From a virus: DNA of 34,725 bases. Numbering within the stretch: position 1 is the first letter of the stretch; the number at the start of each line of letters is the position of its first letter. Location of the stretch: IMG/VR virus record IMGVR_UViG_3300001372_000001, positions 1-34,725 of that record. One strand, given 5' to 3'. The translations under genes were made by a program, and so were the position numbers. Positions 4,030 through 31,887 of this stretch are shown here, one piece after another. Under the pieces are notes generated by a model. That model worked only from the letters and a program-made list of their open reading frames with translations. It searched no databases and was not told where the DNA came from.

Positions 4030-6342
4030 TTATATTAGTTTTCCGAACAAATCGTTCCATTTACTATATGAAGCCTCCCAACTATAGTTTAACGCAAAGT
4101 TGCGTCCAATTTCTCTGATTTTCTTTCTTTCACCCCCATCCATTTCAGCTAGATAGAACAATAAACTGAGCCATCTGTTTTGATAGTCAAGATTGTGTGG
4201 CCAACCTTCTACTTTTAGATCGGTAAGAGCTACTGTTTCATTTAGAGCGCCTAACTTTGAAGTAATTGGAATTACGCCGGCAGCTTGATTTTCAATAGCT
4301 GTAATACAAAATGTTTCCATAAACTCTGTTGGATAAGCCCAATAATTAGAGCTATACATGGCTTTTGCTAATTCATTTTGATTAACTCGACCATGATTAA
4401 ATATCCCGCCCTCCTCATTGCCGAGTTCATTCATCTTGCCGACGATCTGGCTCTTCATATATTCAAGATATGTACCGACAGTGTTTCTATTTCGAAGATT
4501 AGCAATAATTTTATCTATCATGTTCCAGCCATAATAAACATTTAACTCTGCTTCAGGATAATGCTCTCTTATTACGGGCCAAAGACCAAGTAATACATCT
4601 AGACCACGATCTGGCGAAGAAGACCAAATGAATTTAAGTTCACCAGAATCATCATCTGATCTATCTTTCTTAAATCTGTCTAAATTAATACCATTTGGCA
4701 AAATGGCCATTTTATTTTCATCAATGCCATAAAGCTTTTGTAAATGAGTTGCATGCCACTTTGTTAAACCAATGATTTTGTCTGGAACATTCTTGACAAG
4801 CTCTAAATCTTCACCGACATTAACATCGTGCATCCAAAGAAGTTTTAATTTTGCGTTAAGATCTACTTCAAAGGGAGCAGGAGAGCGAGAGGAGACAAAA
4901 ACTTTAAAAGGCTCTGTTGGCAAGAAGTCTTGCGATGGCCAATATTCTACGCCTTCGTAGACTCCTGCATATTCGCCTGGAGTTCCAAATACTACTGTTC
5001 TCCAGCCATCGGCAGCAAACCTTTTTGCCAATTCCATGACACAAATTTCTGCGCCTCCAGATCCATCTTTCTCTATTGTTTGTGGATGCCAAACTTCAGG
5101 AATTGGAGATGTATAAAAACAGATACTTTTATCAGAACGCGACCCTCTTAACTTTTTGCGCTCATCTTTAACTTCTTCAGGAGCCTTGCCAATCTTTTTC
5201 TTTCTTAACAAAGCAATCTTGTCATCTAATAGACCGCTATCTGGATTCCAAAACTTTTTTGCCTTTTTATAATCCTTAATCGCCTGATCATACTCACCGA
5301 GATGCTCACAAGCAAGTCCTCTCAAAAAGAAAGGATAAAAACCTGTCATCATTGGTTCAATTGAAGCAACTGTATTGGGTTTTACAATTCTAGAAGCGAT
5401 ATCTGCAAATGCTTTTTGGCGACGATAATCTCCAAGTTCCATACAGCTTTTAGCTGCTCCAATATAGCCATCTGGCCAATCTGGATAGATAGCAATAGAA
5501 GTTAAATCTGATTCAATTGCCTTTCCATGTTCATTTTTCATTCTATAAAGGTCAGAAATTCTTGTATTGGCTAGATAATAGTCATCTGTAATTTCAGGAA
5601 TCATTTCCTTATATTTTTCAAATGCATGAATTGCCGCATCGACAACTTGATTTCTTTCAAGACTCGGCTCCATTGAATCTGCTTCTGCCATAGTCTCGCC
5701 AGCAAAATAAAACATATAGCGTGGCTCTTGTGGAGATTCTTTTATTGCTTTAGCAAGTATTCTTCTATTTCTTTCCCGAGCTCCTCGGTCTTCTCCGCTT
5801 TTTCGCATATGTTCAAGCCAGCATTCATCGCGTCGGGCGAACTGTGTGCCTGGTGGCGCAGCACACACTTCATGAAGTTTATATCTCCATTCCCAAGGAA
5901 GATCTGTAGACATAATTCTTTCGCGCCATTGCTCAACTACAACTAAACCAGTTTTAGGTTCAACAGCATAGTCATATCTAATGAATATCGCTTGACTATA
6001 TTCATCAAGCGATTCAAACATTCCATCAAGACCATTTGGAGCGTGGAAAATATCATCGCTATCAATCCACATCATCCAATCATATTCATCTTTCGGAACC
6101 ATATCAAAAGACTGTTGACGGGCTTTCCCGAAATCGTCTTCCCACTCAAAGAGTTCTAGAGTAGATTCAATTCCTAGACCAAACAAAAGCAGGCTAAGAT
6201 AATTTAATTTATCTTCATCTGTACCATTATAGGCAATAAATATGCCTTTAACGTGAGGTTCCAGGGAGCTAAAAAGCTGCTGTAATTCCTCTTCTTTAAA
6301 TGCGTCCCCTAAAATTAGGCAAGCCGCTAACCTATTCTTCAA
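4030..6342 (-). CDS. Two-headed glycosyltransferase: GT2 domain, TPR-like middle, GT4 domain
   Basis: A 770-residue protein. Residues 1-150 form a GT-A/GT2 domain with the metal motif WIDSDDIFH near residue 92. Residues about 190-370 are helical with TPR-like repeats (AIHAFEKYKEM, KAIESDLTSIAIYPDWPDGY, LGEYDQAIKDYKKA). Residues about 405-770 are a GT-B/GT4 domain: GSGGAEICVMELAKRFAADG at the donor end, LPNGINLDRF, WSSSPDRGLDVLL, HGRVNQNELAKAMYSSNYWA and the ETFCITAIENQAAG segment. Two sugar-transfer centres in one chain suggest it builds a disaccharide or short chain. The start is TTG at 6342, overlapping the portal stop by 11 bases. The substrate is unknown; virion or host-surface glycosylation is likely. 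Confidence 0.85.
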   Translation of the reverse strand: MKNRLAACLILGDAFKEEELQQLFSSLEPHVKGIFIAYNGTDEDKLNYLSLLLFGLGIESTLELFEWEDDFGKARQQSFDMVPKDEYDWMMWIDSDDIFHAPNGLDGMFESLDEYSQAIFIRYDYAVEPKTGLVVVEQWRERIMSTDLPWEWRYKLHEVCAAPPGTQFARRDECWLEHMRKSGEDRGARERNRRILAKAIKESPQEPRYMFYFAGETMAEADSMEPSLERNQVVDAAIHAFEKYKEMIPEITDDYYLANTRISDLYRMKNEHGKAIESDLTSIAIYPDWPDGYIGAAKSCMELGDYRRQKAFADIASRIVKPNTVASIEPMMTGFYPFFLRGLACEHLGEYDQAIKDYKKAKKFWNPDSGLLDDKIALLRKKKIGKAPEEVKDERKKLRGSRSDKSICFYTSPIPEVWHPQTIEKDGSGGAEICVMELAKRFAADGWRTVVFGTPGEYAGVYEGVEYWPSQDFLPTEPFKVFVSSRSPAPFEVDLNAKLKLLWMHDVNVGEDLELVKNVPDKIIGLTKWHATHLQKLYGIDENKMAILPNGINLDRFKKDRSDDDSGELKFIWSSSPDRGLDVLLGLWPVIREHYPEAELNVYYGWNMIDKIIANLRNRNTVGTYLEYMKSQIVGKMNELGNEEGGIFNHGRVNQNELAKAMYSSNYWAYPTEFMETFCITAIENQAAGVIPITSKLGALNETVALTDLKVEGWPHNLDYQNRWLSLLFYLAEMDGGERKKIREIGRNFALNYSWEASYSKWNDLFGKLI

Positions 6343-8029
6343 TTTCTTCCTCTTCGAGTTCTATTTCATTGCTCTTGAGTATTCTATCAAAAAAGCGTCT
6401 AAGCAATCCGCGCTCATCTTCTGAGAGACTTAACTTTGCACCCTTGGGTGCTGGCGGCTTAGGAGGAGGAATTGCAGGCTGAATTTTAGCTCCAGTAACA
6501 GGATCAACTTGGTGACCCTTGAATGCAGCTTCTTGACGGAGAGTTTCAAGCTTCTGTTGATGCTGCAAGTCTTGGTTATCAGCGATTTCCTTAAGTTTTT
6601 TCTCAATAGCGGCATGAGTAAGTTGAGGAACACCAAGTTGTCTGAGAATTTCCTGCATGTCTGCTTCAGGAACTTCACCATTTTTATTAGCAACAGCCTG
6701 GATAATAACTCTCATCGTTTCCACGTCTTGCGGATCGAAACCAGTTGTTACTTTGGTGCAGCTTGCTCCACCCGTTCCGAAATTAGCTTCAAGAAGCTGT
6801 GGAATCATATAGCGGTTAATAAGATTATCAATTTCTTCCATGACAACAGCTTGTGACTCATGGAAAATATCAGCGAATTCTGCTGCTACATTTCTTGAGC
6901 TAGAACCACCTTTACCTTCAACAAGAGCCTGCTCTGGAACCATAATTGAGCGAATCTTTTGAACATCAAGGTATTCAAATGAATCATTAAGTGCTGCAAA
7001 ATTAGCAGTAGATTCTACTTGCTTGAAATCCCATTCGCGCACGTTGGTTGGTCTATCTTCAGCATATCCTCTGATTACTGAAGAAGGCATGGCAACGTTA
7101 GCACCAGATCTAAGCTGCTCTGCTGTTGCTAGAGCTGCTTCTCCGAAGTCAATATCATTTCCATCAGCATCCTCTACTCCTTCATCAGAAGGATGGAATA
7201 CTACGAACGGAGGATCGCCCCATTTTTCAAAGGCGCGGTCAGAGAGGCCGAACTTATACCAGTATGACCACCAATATCTATAAGCATACCCAATTCTAGG
7301 ATATCCATAGAGAGAACCAAATTCAGAATCTTGTTCATTGGTAGCCCAAAGTGCCCAATCAGCAGGAATATCTGCTGGTCTTCCGCTTGCTCCAAAATAT
7401 GATCCTCCGAGAACACTTCCAAAGGCAGGAGCGTTGTCAATACCTACGAAATCACCCTGTTTATTAAATCTTGGTCTAGCCTTGCGAGGATTCAAAGGAA
7501 TAAAGGGCTTCCAAATAAGTGCTTTAACTCCCTTATTGGACCAAACTGGTTTTTCTGTGCCGGATTCTGGATCAATGAATGTCCAATCTGGCTCATCATA
7601 CTCAAATCTCTTAACAATTGGGCTATAACCATAGTCAAGGCAGTTGAGATATGCCAAAATTAATTTGCCATAAATCTTTTGTAGACAGTTTTGTACAAAA
7701 GCTGCTCTTTGCGGATCAACTGAATCAATTTTCCAGTGAGCTCTAATAAGAGGAACTTTTACGAACATGAGGGCAAAAGCAATCATCGGATCGCGCCGCA
7801 TCTGTTCTAGTTTTGAAAGAGGAATTCTTGTTACATTGAAAGGCTGACCAAGAAGGTCGGCCATCTCGTTCCAGTTAACCCAAGAACCAGTCTGCGACAT
7901 TGAAGTTGCAAACTTTCTGTCTTGCGCTAATCTAGCCGCATACTTTTTTTGTCGCGCTACAGTTTCTCCTGTTTTTAAAGACTCTGCCAGGTTAACCATA
8001 CCGCCAACATCTTTACCATTATCATCCAT
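6332..8029 (-). CDS. Portal protein
   Basis: A 565-residue protein directly downstream of the large terminase gene (6-base gap), which is the classic portal position. The features fit: an N-terminal wing region, IAFALMFVKVPLIRAHWKI, the WALWATNEQDSEFGSLYGYP segment, PPFVVFHPSDEG, and a C-terminal long helix rich in Gln, Leu and Glu (KLKEIADNQDLQHQQKLETL), ending in a very acidic tail. It would form the dodecameric ring through which terminase pumps DNA. An AGAGGG ribosome site precedes the ATG at 8029. Confidence 0.85.
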   Translation of the reverse strand: MDDNGKDVGGMVNLAESLKTGETVARQKKYAARLAQDRKFATSMSQTGSWVNWNEMADLLGQPFNVTRIPLSKLEQMRRDPMIAFALMFVKVPLIRAHWKIDSVDPQRAAFVQNCLQKIYGKLILAYLNCLDYGYSPIVKRFEYDEPDWTFIDPESGTEKPVWSNKGVKALIWKPFIPLNPRKARPRFNKQGDFVGIDNAPAFGSVLGGSYFGASGRPADIPADWALWATNEQDSEFGSLYGYPRIGYAYRYWWSYWYKFGLSDRAFEKWGDPPFVVFHPSDEGVEDADGNDIDFGEAALATAEQLRSGANVAMPSSVIRGYAEDRPTNVREWDFKQVESTANFAALNDSFEYLDVQKIRSIMVPEQALVEGKGGSSSRNVAAEFADIFHESQAVVMEEIDNLINRYMIPQLLEANFGTGGASCTKVTTGFDPQDVETMRVIIQAVANKNGEVPEADMQEILRQLGVPQLTHAAIEKKLKEIADNQDLQHQQKLETLRQEAAFKGHQVDPVTGAKIQPAIPPPKPPAPKGAKLSLSEDERGLLRRFFDRILKSNEIELEEEEIEE

Positions 8030-8035
8030 AATTTT

Positions 8036-9838
8036 CTACCCTCTGGGCAAGTATCGAGGAGCGCTGCTTTTAGCTACATTCTTAATTATATGCTTTTTCT
8101 CACCATATTTGGGCTTGGTTTTGCCAGGAGTACGTCTTCCGATCAATTTAATATTCTCCATAGCATACCTAAAGTTAGACATACAGTGGTCAAAGTCCTT
8201 AACTGGTTCTTCTGGTTCATCAATCATGCCCGGTCTATTTTTTCTCCAGGCCCAACTTTCAGCCTCATTACAAAACATCGGACACTTCATTGTATCTACT
8301 ACAAAGTAGTCATCATTTAAATAGGTTTTGCATGTTTTTATGTGTTCTTTTACATCTCTTGTTACATAAAAGACTGTGGGAAGGGCTACTGGCTTATGCT
8401 TTGCCCAATCTAGACGGGCTGCTTTTGCTGCAATATCGGCAAATCTTCTTTTAACTCTAAATTTAGGATATTTCTTGCGCCACCCCTCTTCTTTCAAAAC
8501 AACAAGATCGGCTAATTCTGAGTTACCAATTTCAGCTTTGTAAATCTCATCAAAACAGACAACGGTGCCGGCGCGAAGTCTTTTAATTGGTTCTTCTTTG
8601 CCATCTTGATCGTGACCATACACATAAATATCATGATCTAGGATTTGATACCAATTTACAGCATGGGGGTTAGTTCCCCCGAAGTCTGTTGAGCTATAAA
8701 TATCTCCATTGTCGGGATCTGGTTCATAAAATTTAACACCATAGCGTTGCTTTGTGAACATAGGAAATACAAGCCCACCAACTTCAGGTCTAGAACATTC
8801 TTTCTGTGCTTCCCATGTATCTCTATCGTTTTCAAGAAACTTTCTATGAATATCGGTAAGAGATGTATACCCATCTGACCTAGCTAATCTGCCTTTGCAT
8901 ACATCACTAAATCTTCTTGGTGTTTCATCTTCCCATTCGCCCTTAACAACCTTGTGACATTGACATTTTTCTTCTTCAGGTAAATCTGGATTCGCAACTC
9001 TACAATTAGGAACATTCTCTGCTACTTCGAATACACACCATGTATAAAGCTTATAAGCTGAACGAAAACCTTTTTGATCTGAGTCTTTAATTTCGTCAAC
9101 AAGGTTCTGCATCTGACCATGCGCCCATTTTCTTGTAGAAGTAATCCAGTCCTGTGCAGGAATTTCTCTTTTTACTTCATTACCTTCTTCATCTCTTTCA
9201 AGAATAATTTTAGAAGAAGAAATGTTCACAGCTTCTTTGAACACTTCCGGGTCCATTAGCTCTACTTCGTCCCTGTGTAGTTTTTGTCCGTGAGGTCCGT
9301 TCACAGCAGAAATAGTTCCAGGGAGAATTTCTACGCTTGAACCATTAGCAAACTGTGTTCTCTCTTTGTTTGTTCTAACAATGTCAGGATGCTTATCAAT
9401 ACTAGGAACTTTGCCGTGGTATTTAGCAAGCTTCTGAAGATTCTCATAAGCTCTGTTTGACTGCGCCCAAATAGCACCAACAGTAATGCTTTCGCACCCT
9501 GGTTTAAAGAGAGAATTCAAGAGATGGATGAGTGCAGAAGCCATCGTCTTGCCACCATCTCTAGAGGCAACAGCAATGGCAGAATCTTCGCGTTCAAAAT
9601 AGATATCTGCGACGAATTCAAAAGGAGATTGATGATCGTCACAAACAGAAACTCTAGGAATGTTTAAACCAAGATTATCTCTAATCCATTTATGAAGTTG
9701 ATCGTCAGTTTGTGGGCCGAGAGATTTATTCTGGGCTATCAGGAGCTTCAAGTTTTTCGCTAGTGCTACTTGCTGTTCCTTCGGCAATCTCGACAAGCTC
9801 TCCTTCGATAAACGGAAGGTCGATTGATCCATTCTCAC
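8036..9838 (-). CDS. terL: Terminase large subunit
   Basis: A 600-residue packaging motor and nuclease. Walker A is ASRDGGKT at residues 91-98. The Walker B-like site with its catalytic acid is RDEVELMD at 189-196. The RNase H-like nuclease domain starts at YSSTDFGGTNPHAVNW near residue 385, with further acidic residues in VVCFDEIY and VKRRFADIAAKAA. Starts are GTG at 9838 or, more plausibly, ATG at 9832. Both lie inside the small-subunit gene, giving an overlap of more than 100 bases read in two frames. The N-terminal residues (SLSRLPKEQQVALAKNLKLL) look like a real terminase N-terminus. Confidence 0.93.
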   Translation of the reverse strand: MRMDQSTFRLSKESLSRLPKEQQVALAKNLKLLIAQNKSLGPQTDDQLHKWIRDNLGLNIPRVSVCDDHQSPFEFVADIYFEREDSAIAVASRDGGKTMASALIHLLNSLFKPGCESITVGAIWAQSNRAYENLQKLAKYHGKVPSIDKHPDIVRTNKERTQFANGSSVEILPGTISAVNGPHGQKLHRDEVELMDPEVFKEAVNISSSKIILERDEEGNEVKREIPAQDWITSTRKWAHGQMQNLVDEIKDSDQKGFRSAYKLYTWCVFEVAENVPNCRVANPDLPEEEKCQCHKVVKGEWEDETPRRFSDVCKGRLARSDGYTSLTDIHRKFLENDRDTWEAQKECSRPEVGGLVFPMFTKQRYGVKFYEPDPDNGDIYSSTDFGGTNPHAVNWYQILDHDIYVYGHDQDGKEEPIKRLRAGTVVCFDEIYKAEIGNSELADLVVLKEEGWRKKYPKFRVKRRFADIAAKAARLDWAKHKPVALPTVFYVTRDVKEHIKTCKTYLNDDYFVVDTMKCPMFCNEAESWAWRKNRPGMIDEPEEPVKDFDHCMSNFRYAMENIKLIGRRTPGKTKPKYGEKKHIIKNVAKSSAPRYLPRG

Positions 9839-15502: not shown

Positions 15503-15835
15503 GGGCTCGACAGGTTTCGATTGCATAAAACAGATAATGAATTACAGCGGTTGATTGCCTAAAATCACAAAAACAATAAATGCAGATAATAAAGATGCAA
15601 CACATCTCTTCTTCTCGGGTGAGGCTACGGTCGCCCCGTCAAGAAGTCTGGCATACGCCTAAGCCAAGGAACCCAATTAGGTAGACTCTCAGGAAAGACT
15701 GAGTGGTGTCGCGGGTAATCCCGGCTGACGAATCGGAAAGACGATAAGGTGGAGGGAGTTAGTAAGCCCCCAAAAGCTGTTATAAGATTTATTGTTATGA
15801 TATGTAAGACGAGGGTTCGAATCCCTCCGAGTCCA
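15503..15835 (+). ncRNA. ssrA: Transfer-messenger RNA (tmRNA)
   Basis: The ends form a tRNA-Ala-like domain: acceptor GGGCTCG at 15503-15509 pairs with CGAGTCC at 15828-15834, including the G3-U70 alanine signal, then A73. The T arm is GAGGG-TTCGAAT-CCCTC. CCA is not encoded. A likely tag frame runs from GCA at 15582 to TAA at 15660-15662: 26 residues that begin ADNKDATHL and end RSLAYA. Bacterial tags are usually 8-15 residues ending in LAA, so this one is long and differs at the degron. tmRNA rescues stalled ribosomes with SmpB. It sits inside the replication operon. Confidence 0.95.
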
Positions 15836-17791: not shown

Positions 17792-20700
17792 TTGTCTAAT
17801 CTGGTCCACTTACATCGTCATGGAGAATTTTCTCTTCTTGATGGAGTAGGAACGGCAGAGCATTATGCAAAGCGAGCAGCCGAGCTAGGACAGTCGGCTC
17901 TCGCTTTGACAGATCATGGTTCTTTAGCCGGGGTTCTCTATCATGTAGACGCCTGTGAAGCGCAGGGAATTAAACCTATCATCGGTGCAGAAATGTACTT
18001 TACGCTTGATGCTCTTAAGCACGACAAAGAACACAAGCGCTTCCACTTAGTTTTGCTAGCTAAAAATTACGCTGGTTTTAGAAATTTAATGCGGCTATCA
18101 AGTCTTTCGTGGCAACCTGAAAACTTTTATTATAAGCCTTGTATTGATTGGCGCTTGCTGCGACAGTATTCAGAGGGTCTTATTGCTTCAACTTCCTGTA
18201 TGAGCGGGATAGTTCCTCGTGCAATTCTTGCAGGGGATGATGAAGGAGCTCATAGATATTTAAATACATTGCAGGATATTTTTGGCGATGATCTTTATCT
18301 AGAGATTCATCCTCACGATGATAATGGACAGCGCAGAGTTAATAGAGAACTTATAAAACTAGCAGAACAAAAGGGGCTTCCTGTTGTTGCTGCTACTGAC
18401 GCTCATTATCCTTTTAAAGAATGGTTTGGAACACAGGATATTCTTGTAATGATTCAAACTGGTCAGTCTAATAAGTCAAGAGAAGATAGAGAAGATGCCG
18501 CTAAAGATATCTTTAAGTTTTCCGGCAATACTTATTGGCTCATGAGCGAAGATGAACTAGTAGAGCAATTCAACAGTTTCCACCCTGAACTAAAGGAAGA
18601 TTGGATTGATGAATTCATTCGGAATACTACAGAAATTGCTGATCGCTGTGAACATTTTACAATAGATAAATCGCCTAAGATTCCAAAGGCAACAAAGTCT
18701 CCACTAGAGGCAGAGAGAATTCTGCGCCGTTGGTGTAGGGAAGGATTAGAGAGAATTGGAAAGAGTGACGACGACCGATATTTGTCTAGGGTTGAAGAGG
18801 AACTGGCTACAATGCGTAGGCTTAGAGTCCTTGATTATTTCGTCATTGTGGCTGACATGGTACGATGGGCTAAAGACCAAGGTATCCGTGTCGGACCGGG
18901 CAGAGGTTCTGCTGCTGGTTGCCTTGTCAATTATCTATGCAGAATCACATCCGTTGATCCGATTGGATACGGACTCCTCTTCGAACGTTTTCTAAACGAT
19001 TATAGAACATCGCTTCCTGATATTGATATTGACTTTCAGGATGATAGACGCGATGAAGTGAAGCAGTATCTTCATGAAAAATATGGGGACGAGTATGTAG
19101 TCAATGTTGCTTCTTATCAATCATTTGGTTTGAGAGCTTCAATTCTAGATGTAGCCAGAGTTCTTAATGTCCCTTATGAGAAGGTTCGCAGAGCTACAAA
19201 CGCCATCCCAGATAAAACATTTGGAGAAACTCTTGAATCACTAGAAATGTCTTATCCTCCTATTAAGCAGTTTTTTAAAGAGTTTCCACAGGTTCGCACT
19301 CATGCAATGAGATTGCAGGGACAAATGAAGGGGCAGTCACAGCATCCTGCGGCAGTTATTATTACTGACGTACCAGCCATAGATGTTATTCCTATGATGC
19401 AATCAAAAGATGGTGGTATGGTTACTCAGTGGTCTGAGCGAGCTAACGCACAGCTTATTTCTCCATATGGATTCCTTAAGATTGATTGTCTTGCTACAGA
19501 AGGTCTTACTATGCAGCAAAACATCATTGATAAAATCAAGGAGCGCACAGGAGAAATTATTGATTTTGAAAGCATAGAACAGTTCCCTATTATTGAATCT
19601 CCCTATAAAGTAGACGCTCAAGTTGTTGAAAATTTTGCTGACGGTTATAACATAGGCGTGTTTCAGTTTGCTAGTCGAGGGATCGTTGGTTTGCTTAAAC
19701 AAATTCAGCCAGAAAATCTTGAGCATGTTATTGCTGCCAACGCTCTCTTTAGGCCAGGAACGCTGGCTAACGGTGTAGCCTTTGAATATGCTGACAGAAA
19801 GAATGGTAAGAAATTCTGGAAGATGCCGCACGAATCAATGGATCAATTCATTAGCCCTACATATGGATTTATGATCTTCCAAGAGCAGGTTATACAAATC
19901 TTCAGAGCCTTGGGGAGAAATGTAACTCCTGCTGATACTGCACCATTCCTTTCTGTAGTAGCAAAAGGTATTGCTAGGGATCTTGATGGAAAAAAGAAAC
20001 TTCAAGCATTCTATGATCAATTTGCTGCTGGCTGTGAAGATAAAAAGATTCCGCGCCATATTTATGACGAGATTTGGTCGCAGATTCTTCAGATGACTAC
20101 ATATGCTTTCAATAAAGCTCACTCTACAGGATATTCTTTGCAGGCTTATCAAGATAAATGGCTTAAAACTTATTATCCTCTTGAATTCTATGCTTCTCTA
20201 CTCACAGTAGAGATGGGTTCAAGTGCTGATTCACAGAAGAAAGTTATGAAGGCTATTAGAGAGGCCAATACTATAGGAGTTAAAATTCTGCCGCCAGATG
20301 TTAATATTTCTGACGTTGGTTTTACTATTGACGGTAACTCAATTAGGTTCGGCTTGCAAGGTATTAAGTTTGTTGGCCAAGCCGCTGTTGAAGAGATAAA
20401 AGAGAAGCGTCCGTTTGAATCATATGAAGATTTTTATTCAAAGGTTGATAAGAAAAAGATTAACAAAAGATGCAAGAAATCTTTGGTGATGGCCGGTGCT
20501 TTTGACAACTTAGGTGGACGTGAAAAATGGACACTAGATGAAGACGGTATTAGAGAAGATGGAAGAATGAATCAAGATGATAGAGCATTGGCTGAGAAGG
20601 AAATGATGGGCTACTCAGTTTCTTATGGAGAAGATGCAGCGAAATATAATGCCTTGCTAGTTGATTATATTTCAAATGAATTGAAAGGCGATGTTCAGGT

Positions 20701-20944
20701 CGGAGGAGAAGTTGTTAACGTCAAAGAGATAAATGACAAGAACAACAACAAGATGGCTTTCGTGGATTTAAGCTATAATATGACTGACTATGCGGCTACA
20801 TTTTTTGCTGATTCATACGAACAGTTTAGACATATTCTCACTGAGGGGAACACGATTCTAATCTCAGGAGAGTACGATTCTGAAAGAGAAACTACGATAG
20901 CGAGCAGAGCCATAAGTGTTGCTCAGTTGATAGCGGAGGGCTAA
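17792..20944 (+). CDS. dnaE: DNA polymerase III alpha subunit
   Basis: A 1050-residue C-family replicative polymerase. The N-terminal PHP domain begins NLVHLHRHGEFSLLDGVG and includes LALTDHGSLAG. GPGRGSAAGCLVNY precedes the catalytic aspartates in LPDIDIDFQDDRRDEV near residues 405-418. The fingers and tandem helix-hairpin-helix region follow (FNKAHSTGYSLQAYQDKWL, then GLQGIKFVG), and an OB-like segment ends the chain. It is about 110 residues shorter than E. coli DnaE. The start is TTG directly after the SSB stop. Phages that carry DnaE usually borrow the host clamp and loader. Confidence 0.96.
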   Translation: MSNLVHLHRHGEFSLLDGVGTAEHYAKRAAELGQSALALTDHGSLAGVLYHVDACEAQGIKPIIGAEMYFTLDALKHDKEHKRFHLVLLAKNYAGFRNLMRLSSLSWQPENFYYKPCIDWRLLRQYSEGLIASTSCMSGIVPRAILAGDDEGAHRYLNTLQDIFGDDLYLEIHPHDDNGQRRVNRELIKLAEQKGLPVVAATDAHYPFKEWFGTQDILVMIQTGQSNKSREDREDAAKDIFKFSGNTYWLMSEDELVEQFNSFHPELKEDWIDEFIRNTTEIADRCEHFTIDKSPKIPKATKSPLEAERILRRWCREGLERIGKSDDDRYLSRVEEELATMRRLRVLDYFVIVADMVRWAKDQGIRVGPGRGSAAGCLVNYLCRITSVDPIGYGLLFERFLNDYRTSLPDIDIDFQDDRRDEVKQYLHEKYGDEYVVNVASYQSFGLRASILDVARVLNVPYEKVRRATNAIPDKTFGETLESLEMSYPPIKQFFKEFPQVRTHAMRLQGQMKGQSQHPAAVIITDVPAIDVIPMMQSKDGGMVTQWSERANAQLISPYGFLKIDCLATEGLTMQQNIIDKIKERTGEIIDFESIEQFPIIESPYKVDAQVVENFADGYNIGVFQFASRGIVGLLKQIQPENLEHVIAANALFRPGTLANGVAFEYADRKNGKKFWKMPHESMDQFISPTYGFMIFQEQVIQIFRALGRNVTPADTAPFLSVVAKGIARDLDGKKKLQAFYDQFAAGCEDKKIPRHIYDEIWSQILQMTTYAFNKAHSTGYSLQAYQDKWLKTYYPLEFYASLLTVEMGSSADSQKKVMKAIREANTIGVKILPPDVNISDVGFTIDGNSIRFGLQGIKFVGQAAVEEIKEKRPFESYEDFYSKVDKKKINKRCKKSLVMAGAFDNLGGREKWTLDEDGIREDGRMNQDDRALAEKEMMGYSVSYGEDAAKYNALLVDYISNELKGDVQVGGEVVNVKEINDKNNNKMAFVDLSYNMTDYAATFFADSYEQFRHILTEGNTILISGEYDSERETTIASRAISVAQLIAEG

Positions 20945-29945: not shown

Positions 29946-29971
29946 GGGGCTACCGCTTTGTATTATATAGG

Positions 29972-30042
29972 CTCCAGATCAAGGATTCGAACCTCAATTC
30001 GCGGCTTCAGAGGCCGGCGTCCTACCTTTAGACGAATCTGGA
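29972..30042 (-). tRNA. tRNA-Gln(CUG)
   Basis: Acceptor TCCAGAT/ATCTGGA with the U1-A72 glutamine signal and G73. Anticodon loop CTCTGAA (CTG), D loop with GG, T arm TGAGG-TTCGAAT-CCTTG. One anticodon-stem mismatch (27-43). Confidence 0.9.
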
Positions 30043-30053
30043 ATGAATTAAAT

Positions 30054-30082
30054 ATTATAACAATTGAGTGGTAACTTGTCAA
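30054..30082 (-). promoter_or_regulatory. Consensus promoter overlapping the 3' end of tRNA-Thr(CGU)
   Basis: TTGACA (30077-30082), 17-base spacer, TATAAT (30054-30059) on the minus strand. The first base of the -35 is the discriminator base of tRNA-Thr(CGU). It drives tRNA-Gln(CUG). Confidence 0.85.
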
Positions 30083-30153
30083 GCCACACTGAGGATTTGC
30101 GCCTCACTCTCTGGGTTACGAAGCCAGTATATCGCTGTCTATATTTGTGCGGC
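30082..30153 (-). tRNA. tRNA-Thr(CGU) with an altered elbow
   Basis: Acceptor GCCGCAC/GTGTGGC, U73. Anticodon loop TTCGTAA (CGT). D arm ATAT...ATAT with loop AGACAGCG (A18-G19 in place of GG). T arm TGAGG-CGCAAAT-CCTCA, so TTC is replaced by CGC. It starts three bases after the RNase P RNA 3' end. Confidence 0.7.
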
Positions 30154-30156
30154 ACG

Positions 30157-30466
30157 TTAAATGGGCTATAAGCCGGGTTCTGTCTAGGGAATACATCTGT
30201 CTCACATATTGTGATGGCACTATGCCATTGCTCTCTACCTGAAGGATTAGGAGTCCTCTGCTTGAGATTACACCCCGTCGAATCTGAAGTAAAACGATAG
30301 GTATCTGTACGCGACCTCAGAGTTTATCAATGGTTTCCCATTCGCTATGACCTATCTCCTTCTTTTTCTGCACGTTATCTTATACCTTTTAAACCTAATA
30401 TAAGAAGGTGGCCGGACTTTCCTCGAAGGTTTTTGAATTCCTCCGCATATTCCTACCCATTTAATT
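30157..30466 (-). ncRNA. rnpB: RNase P RNA (catalytic RNA)
   Basis: About 310 nt. On the minus strand the 5' P1 strand TTAAATGGG (30456-30464) pairs perfectly with CCCATTTAA (30157-30165). P2 is GGAATAT/GTATTCC. P3 is GGAGG/CCTTC. The universal core GAGGAAAGTCCGGC (30411-30424) and ACAGAACCCGGCTTA (30169-30183) forms P4 with its bulged U. The conserved AGATGTATTCCCT-GACAGAACCC order near the 3' end matches bacterial RNase P RNA. I could not place the L15 GGU loop that pairs with CCA. The RNA would cut 5' leaders off tRNAs, using the host or a phage RnpA protein. Confidence 0.93.
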
Positions 30467-30573
30467 AGATACATCACCACTCGCTACCCACCTCAGATTC
30501 TTTTCTCGCTGGCCTACAGATTGCGCTGTAGCGCCGAGATACTGAGCCTAAGCCTTGTCCGTGTGTATCTAAG
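30467..30573 (-). other. Structured leader between tRNA-Thr(GGU) and rnpB
   Basis: No gene. AGATAC (30537-30542) pairs with GTATCT (30565-30570). A second hairpin is CTACAG (30514-30519) with CTGTAG (30526-30531). This stretch is the 5' leader of RNase P RNA in the polycistronic transcript. Confidence 0.45.
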
Positions 30574-30648
30574 AGCCGACGGAAGGACTTGAACCTTCAT
30601 CCTCATCTATACCAAAGATGCGCTCTGTCCATTTGGAGCTACACCGGC
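30574..30648 (-). tRNA. tRNA-Thr(GGU)
   Basis: Acceptor GCCGGTG/CGTCGGC, U73. Anticodon stem CATCT/AGATG with loop TTGGTAT. D loop with GG. T arm GAAGG-TTCAAGT-CCTTC. Downstream of it lies rnpB. Confidence 0.9.
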
Positions 30649-30801: not shown

Positions 30802-31887
30802 TTAGGGTCTAACAAAACCTTCTGCTATTTTATTTCCGAAGGTATCTCTTGTTTCTGCCCATTGTAGACCTAATAATCTAGTACCATTTTCATGTTGCCC
30901 CGCAGCCGTTACTTGGATGAACTCTGCATTCTCTCTTAGTTCATTTAAATTAGTCGCGCCGCCATAAGAAACGCCACTTCTAATTCCCCAAGCCAATTCC
31001 TTAATTACACTTTCTACACTACCTACCCTTTTTACAAAGCCATATGATCCTTCAGGAGCTCTATGACCATTTACATGCTCGGAAGCATTGCCATAATATT
31101 CTCCAGGGCTTGGTGCTTCATCACAACCTGCTAATAAAGAACCAATCATCACTGTATCCGCTCCAGCCGCAAGTGCTTTAACGATATCTCCTGAGTTTTT
31201 AATGCCCCCATCAGCAATAACTTTTACATCGGGATACCATTTTTTAATTCTACTTACTTCAATAATAGCTGAGAGTTGCGGCACTCCAAAACCAGTTACT
31301 TCTCTAGTTCTACAAGCTGCTCCTGGCCCAACACCAACTTTAATAACATCAGCACCAGCATCAGCAAGTCTTTCTGCTCCGAAGAATGTAGCTACATTAC
31401 CTACAATTAATTTATGCTCAGAAGTATTAAAAGTTTCTTTAAAATTCTTAATAAATTTAATTACTATATCATGATCACCATGAGCTACATCTAAACAAAA
31501 AACTCTTGCCCCACAATAATGTAATTTTCTTGCTCTTGTAAATCCATCTTTAAGACCTAAAGAACAACCAACTTGTCTTGTCCCTGATATAGATGCATAG
31601 TGATATTCTTCTACATTTTCTTCAACAGAATTGAACCTATGAAGAATACCAAAGCCTCCAACATCATACATTGCTCTTGCCATGTGATGTTCTGTAACGC
31701 TAGGCATATTTGCTGAAATAATAGGAATATTTAATTTAAAATTTTTATAAAGTTCCCCTGAAATATCAGCATCTTTGCGACTATCTAATGCTCCTGTCTT
31801 TGGGACCAAGAGTACATCATCAAAAGTAAAAGCTGGTTTAATTGTATGATACAAACTATTCTTTTTCCTTATCTTTTTCAAATCCAA
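30802..31887 (-). CDS. IMP dehydrogenase / GMP reductase family enzyme
   Basis: A 361-residue TIM barrel. Nucleophile C192 in [20 protein letters not shown], phosphate site [40 protein letters not shown], and the flap region [23 protein letters not shown] domains are absent, as in GMP reductase, but GVPQ and the AGCDEAPGE-like part look more like IMPDH. It would shift purine flow between IMP, XMP and GMP. The start is TTG at 31887, inside the end of the small upstream gene. Either activity would help the phage's own nucleotide supply. Confidence 0.85.

Follow-up and report, generated by a model that had tools for sequence, protein, structure and literature searches.

A bacterial-type RNase P RNA gene inside a phage tRNA array, and similar arrangements in other phages

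RNase P RNA (P RNA) is among the few ribozymes common to nearly all cells, normally with one gene per genome. The archaeal minimal (type T) form consists of a catalytic domain with little specificity domain, ca. 200 nt in all; it resembles in size and domain content the 211-nt copies of Microbacterium phages described below, but has archaeal protein partners and an archaeal core, whereas the match of the phage copies is to bacterial class A. With the bacterial class A RNA (rnpB, M1 RNA) the phage RNA reported here shares P1–P5, P15 with its GGU, a P18-like hairpin, CR-I, CR-V and a P4 with bulged U. It differs in being phage-encoded within a tRNA array, in its short and atypical specificity domain, in scoring below the Rfam cut-off and in that no rnpA was found with it. 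The P RNAs of the Candidate Phyla Radiation are diverged and were found only by lowering the cut-off (PMC8172020). They are likewise missed at standard cut-offs and have reduced helices; however, each of them is the rnpB of a cellular chromosome, and some lack the UGG motif that is kept in our copy (PMC8172020). Phage translation genes, i.e., tRNA arrays, tmRNA and the CCA-adding enzyme, share its neighbourhood and presumed purpose (PMC7162821). In the survey of huge phages the tRNAs were identified by tRNAscan-SE and the tmRNAs by ARAGORN, and RNase P is unmentioned in the text (PMC7162821). In our search of the open-access full-text literature no description of an RNase P RNA encoded by a phage came to light.

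The window, i.e., the whole stretch of DNA analysed, is a fragment of 34,725 bases, the first 13.9 kb of which are overlapped at 100% by another record. The contig is viral: it carries a Mu-type portal protein (6332–8029, minus strand; PF06074, 8.8e-15), a terminase large subunit (8036–9838, minus strand; phrog_5653, 7.5e-10), DnaB, primase and a phage DNA polymerase III alpha (17792–20944, plus strand) that served to identify a sister phage, together with a RecA/UvsX-like recombinase, Thy1 and ribonucleotide reductase. An earlier note on this DNA had listed portal, terminases, endolysin and tRNA arrays as its surroundings; portal, terminase large subunit and tRNA array are there, while no endolysin was identified by family. 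The window has 25 tRNAs and a tmRNA (15503–15835, plus strand, from the RNA gene scan), and the absence of encoded CCA that the note had reported holds for all of the tRNAs (0 of 25). The tmRNA has an unusually long predicted tag, ADNKDATHLFFSGEATVAPSRSLAYA, and a similar tag is present in the sister phage.

The feature studied here is an RNase P RNA of the bacterial class A. Using cmscan with permissive settings it matched RF00010 at 30464–30153 on the minus strand with 71.6 bits and E=1.2e-21, the model being covered over its full span, and a search of the whole record with RF00010 gave E=1.3e-23. The match lies below the curated Rfam gathering score of 100 bits, and therefore a default gathering scan of the window does not list the P RNA. 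This score is a search convention and no biological limit: among 14 control genomes an RF00010 match was found in 11, of which eight were above the cut-off and three below, so genuine P RNAs can score below it. The earlier note had proposed this check with Infernal and had taken a score below threshold as a refutation; a match was indeed obtained and its score is below the threshold, yet this is outweighed by the E value and by the covariation described below. Its central claim of a phage-encoded RNase P RNA is borne out by the RF00010 match, the phage hallmarks of the contig and an orthologue in the same tRNA context in the sister phage.

From P1 to P1 the RNA measures 308 nt (30464–30157, minus strand), as delimited by the RF00010 match and the sister covariation; the place given before (30157–30466, about 310 nt) was right, and the strand and the ends are corrected here. 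The helices that had been picked out by eye (a P1 of 9 bp, P2, P3 and a P4 with bulged U) were all found when we read the sequence. P1 is formed by UUAAAUGGG (30456–30464) and CCCAUUUAA (30165–30157), with 9 bp, and P2 by UAGGAAUA (30448–30455) and UAUUCCCUA (30193–30185). The P3 hairpin, CGGAGG...CCUUCG (30424–30445), was recognized in the RF00010 alignment and the sister comparison, and in P4 the 5' strand AAG-U-CCGG (30412–30419, bulged U at 30416) pairs with CCGGCUU (30176–30170). The CR-I/CR-V core with the bulged-U P4 is canonical (GAGGAAAGUCCGG and ACAGAACCCGGCUUA), and P5 (CACC/GGUG), P15 (UCUC/GAGA) and P16-like and P18-like hairpins could also be read. The L15 GGU, the motif that pairs with the 3' CCA of tRNAs, had been suspected to be absent. 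It is present at 30239–30237 within CAGGUAGAGAG, in the context AGGUAGAGAG (30240–30231), according to both the RF00010 alignment and the sequence reading, and is kept in the sister phage copy as well. In the specificity domain, of ca. 125 nt, stems are present but the fit to the RF00010 model is poor; this predicted domain (P7–P12, CR-II and CR-III in class A) appears reduced and divergent. A single-sequence fold of the P RNA gave a z of -0.80, which we judged to be no test here.

The P RNA is flanked upstream by tRNA-Thr(GGT) (30573–30648) and downstream by tRNA-Thr(CGT) (30082–30153) and tRNA-Gln(CTG) (29970–30042), all on the minus strand. The tRNA-Thr(CGT), with a 7-bp acceptor (GCCGCAC/GTGTGGC), starts 3 nt past P1. 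ARAGORN did not call it in the window, whereas its orthologue (492–563 of locus L110) was called normally in the sister phage; the T-loop and the anticodon stem of the window copy are unusual. Adjoining the RNA cluster there is a gene of the IMP dehydrogenase/GMP reductase family (30802–31887, minus strand), the closest of whose four viral relatives found is 47% identical.

The sister phage (G026, 39 kb) has a polymerase 77% identical to that of the window and maintains the same order at locus L110: tRNA-Thr(GGT), a structured element, P RNA, tRNA-Thr(CGT) and tRNA-Gln(CTG). Its P RNA copy gave no RF00010 match at E up to 10. We compared the two P RNAs over 60 pairs, in helices assigned by hand, with an uncertain alignment of S2 and without a formal null, and found that in 24 of them both bases had changed with pairing retained, while two were broken and 34 unchanged, with no one-sided changes. 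Without the stems of the specificity domain there were 21 compensated pairs and one broken in 49. In P1 seven of the nine pairs were doubly changed, and in P2 six pairs were compared. The predicted secondary structure has thus been kept through compensatory change between the window and its sister. A more distant relative (G032) has a tRNA array without detectable P RNA. A search with the pattern ACGGGGTNNAATCTCAAG was abandoned; beyond the sister, its hits gave no match to RF00010 and were for the most part repeats of a single sequence that seems to be protein-coding.

The gap between tRNA-Thr(GGT) and the P RNA is exactly filled by a conserved structured element (30465–30572, minus strand), which is independent of the RNase P RNA. 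In the window it has the stem UUAGAUACA/UGUAUCUAA and the strands CACGGACAAGGCUUAGGC and GGGUAGCGAGUGGUGA. The motif, a closing stem around CACGGACAAGGCUNNGG ... GGGNNGCGNGUGGUGA, was found in 28 distinct copies in the sequences searched, among them those at L110 78–184, L132 5794–5895 and NC_048730.1 92752–92825. Over the 28 copies the closing stem shows strong covariation: pairing at its first six positions was 96–100% and involved up to five pair types, and with the stem slid by one to three bases it was 0–68%. There was no match for the element in Rfam. Its copies often lie in tRNA clusters of phages, and 124 records of Streptomyces and Arthrobacter phages contain it without annotation. 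At L132 the region 5730–6014 is a permuted two-piece phage tmRNA with the element between its halves. In the permuted tmRNAs of L132 and L340 (the latter read from sequence only) the segment between the 3' CCA and the 5' G is exactly the element, and the stem that closes it is at most 15 bp long.

Similar arrangements were found when IMG/VR was scanned for the exact CR-V string, which gave 91 stretches. A subset of these contigs has the P RNA inside a tRNA array, the next tRNA usually lying 28–38 nt past the start of CR-V. These are G002, G003, G005, G010, G104 and G115, mostly in the order Cys-P-Gly; G004, G121 and G122; G008, G012 and G017; and, with reduced forms of the P RNA, G014, G118, G123 and G007. 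Phage hallmarks are present in G014 (tail sheath and head maturation protease) and G118 (portal, terminase and baseplate wedge), and a terminase in G123 and G008; phage status is weaker for G007, G002 and G003, and for the remaining contigs it is taken from their place in the viral collection and from their tRNA arrays. Compared with the polymerase of the window, those of G014 and G118 show only 27–29% identity. Judged from these sequences, P RNA within tRNA arrays recurs in several unrelated phages. Cellular P RNAs that share the CR-I variant had no tRNA close downstream, the nearest being 5.3 kb off. A blastn search of annotated phages with the window P RNA gave only an 11% partial match (E 0.1). 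We set aside matches of about 260–335 bits on short prophage-like contigs as probable host sequence at prophage edges, two contigs of 372 and 497 kb in which the P RNA has no tRNA nearby, and a match in Microcystis phage MaAM05, which has mtgA in the neighbourhood and no tRNA annotated there. The array of G123 also contains a sub-threshold match to a selenocysteine tRNA (L219 16984–17070, minus strand).

Cultured Microbacterium phages provide further examples. A P RNA like that of G123, 211 nt long, is present, unannotated, in A3Wally (93855–94065, 99.5%), in Zooman and Big4 (91%) and in one more record. The A3Wally copy is preceded by a tRNA ending at 93854 and followed by one beginning at 94071, and in Zooman and Big4 the P RNA lies in the same way directly between tRNA genes. 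The RF00010 scores were 72 bits for A3Wally and 53 bits for Zooman. On this point the earlier note, which called the gene rare in phages, needs amending: the P RNA of the window is no isolated case, as others occur in several groups of phages and in phages that have been cultured.

The sequence of P4 is in uppercase, i.e., highly conserved, in the RF00010 consensus, and the canonical P4 is kept in the A3Wally, G123 and window copies. In L110 P4 reads ACG-UU-AGG/CCUUCGU: two changes, A-U to C-G and C-G to A-U, are compensated, one C-G pair has become U-U and is broken, and the core ACAGAA has become ACAAAA. In Zooman and Big4 an A-U has become G-C and a G-C has become U-G, both compensated; the P RNAs whose P4 has two compensatory pair changes relative to A3Wally lie at OK040793.1 89341–89551 and ON637770.1 91782–91992. 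The predicted changes in Zooman and Big4 are independent of those in the sister of the window. Since the changes at these near-invariant positions are compensated, the pairing of P4 appears to be selected though its sequence varies. If the L110, Zooman and Big4 copies work, they would do so with an altered core. We suggest tentatively, and at somewhat less than even probability, that phage P RNAs are an overlooked class of viral ribozyme that is leaving the cellular constraint, with P4 rewritten in at least two lineages, the products being either catalysts with an altered core or agents that bind RnpA or tRNA and act against the host RNase P.

The RNase P protein RnpA (PF00825) was not found in any of 20 records (18 virus records plus the complete genomes of A3Wally and Zooman), in a search that was positive in 10 control genomes. 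With no RnpA gene in these records, the host RnpA would have to serve. A CCA-adding enzyme (PF01743) is encoded in A3Wally, Zooman, G123, G007, G002, G003 and G008, and was not found in the window or the fragments of its relatives.

We consider it probable, with reasonable rather than strong confidence, that the phage P RNA supplies RNase P catalysis for the phage tRNA array; transcription, borrowing of RnpA, catalysis and a benefit to infection are what we infer from the gene and its context. The array would be read as one transcript, the P RNA being probably co-transcribed with its neighbours; host RnpA would bind the phage P RNA, and the holoenzyme would trim the 5' leaders of the phage pre-tRNAs and of the tmRNA, which is a likely second substrate. 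Cleavage at the abutting tRNA-Thr(CGT) would release the 3' end of the P RNA itself, a natural-looking end because P1 and the tRNA are only 3 nt apart, and the array would thereby help to mature its own processing enzyme. Against this reading we count the poor fit of the specificity domain to the model, the lack of an RF00010 match for the sister copy, the change of ACAGAA to ACAAAA in L110 and the altered P4 of L110, Zooman and Big4, and the need of a second P RNA is unproven, as the host already has one. The same observations could be explained if the P RNA-like fold were a decoy that binds host RnpA or pre-tRNAs, restraining the host RNase P and favouring the phage tRNAs, for which good catalysis is not required. 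The missing RnpA partner in the records searched, the reduced specificity domain and the altered, still paired, near-invariant P4 of sister copies in two lineages would all suit such a role, but the copies of A3Wally, G123 and the window have kept a canonical core, the contact of the L15 GGU with the substrate is preserved and the placement abutting tRNA genes fits the processing of that array, so that we regard a decoy as unlikely.

Phages accumulate tRNAs, and the P RNA could also have come as part of a bacterial tRNA locus with its rnpB, swept into the array and now functionless or decaying. The array of G032 without detectable P RNA implies that phages can gain or lose the gene, and the core changes in L110 would agree with decay. 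However, decay would not be expected to leave 24 positions doubly changed and still paired between sister phages, nor P4 of Zooman and Big4 altered in a compensatory way, and the arrangement is found again in several groups of phages; a passenger is quite improbable. As for an origin from a host chromosome through misassembly or bacterial contamination, many high RF00010 matches in the viral collection do look host-derived, at the edges of prophage contigs. Here gene order throughout the region is shared with the sister contig, and an arrangement of this kind occurs in the complete genomes of cultured phages, so that this explanation, which the earlier note had named as a way to be wrong, has a negligible probability and is already refuted in substance.

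A P RNA gene in a phage escapes notice for two reasons: it is missed at curated cut-offs, and phage annotation includes no search for it. The cultured carriers have a laboratory host, which makes need, activity and use of the host protein directly testable, and the sister phages with a rewritten P4 provide naturally occurring compensatory variants of an active site in which cells show hardly any variation. If the preferred reading of phage-supplied RNase P catalysis is right, some viruses would carry their own catalyst of tRNA maturation, and tRNA arrays may help to mature the RNA that matures them.
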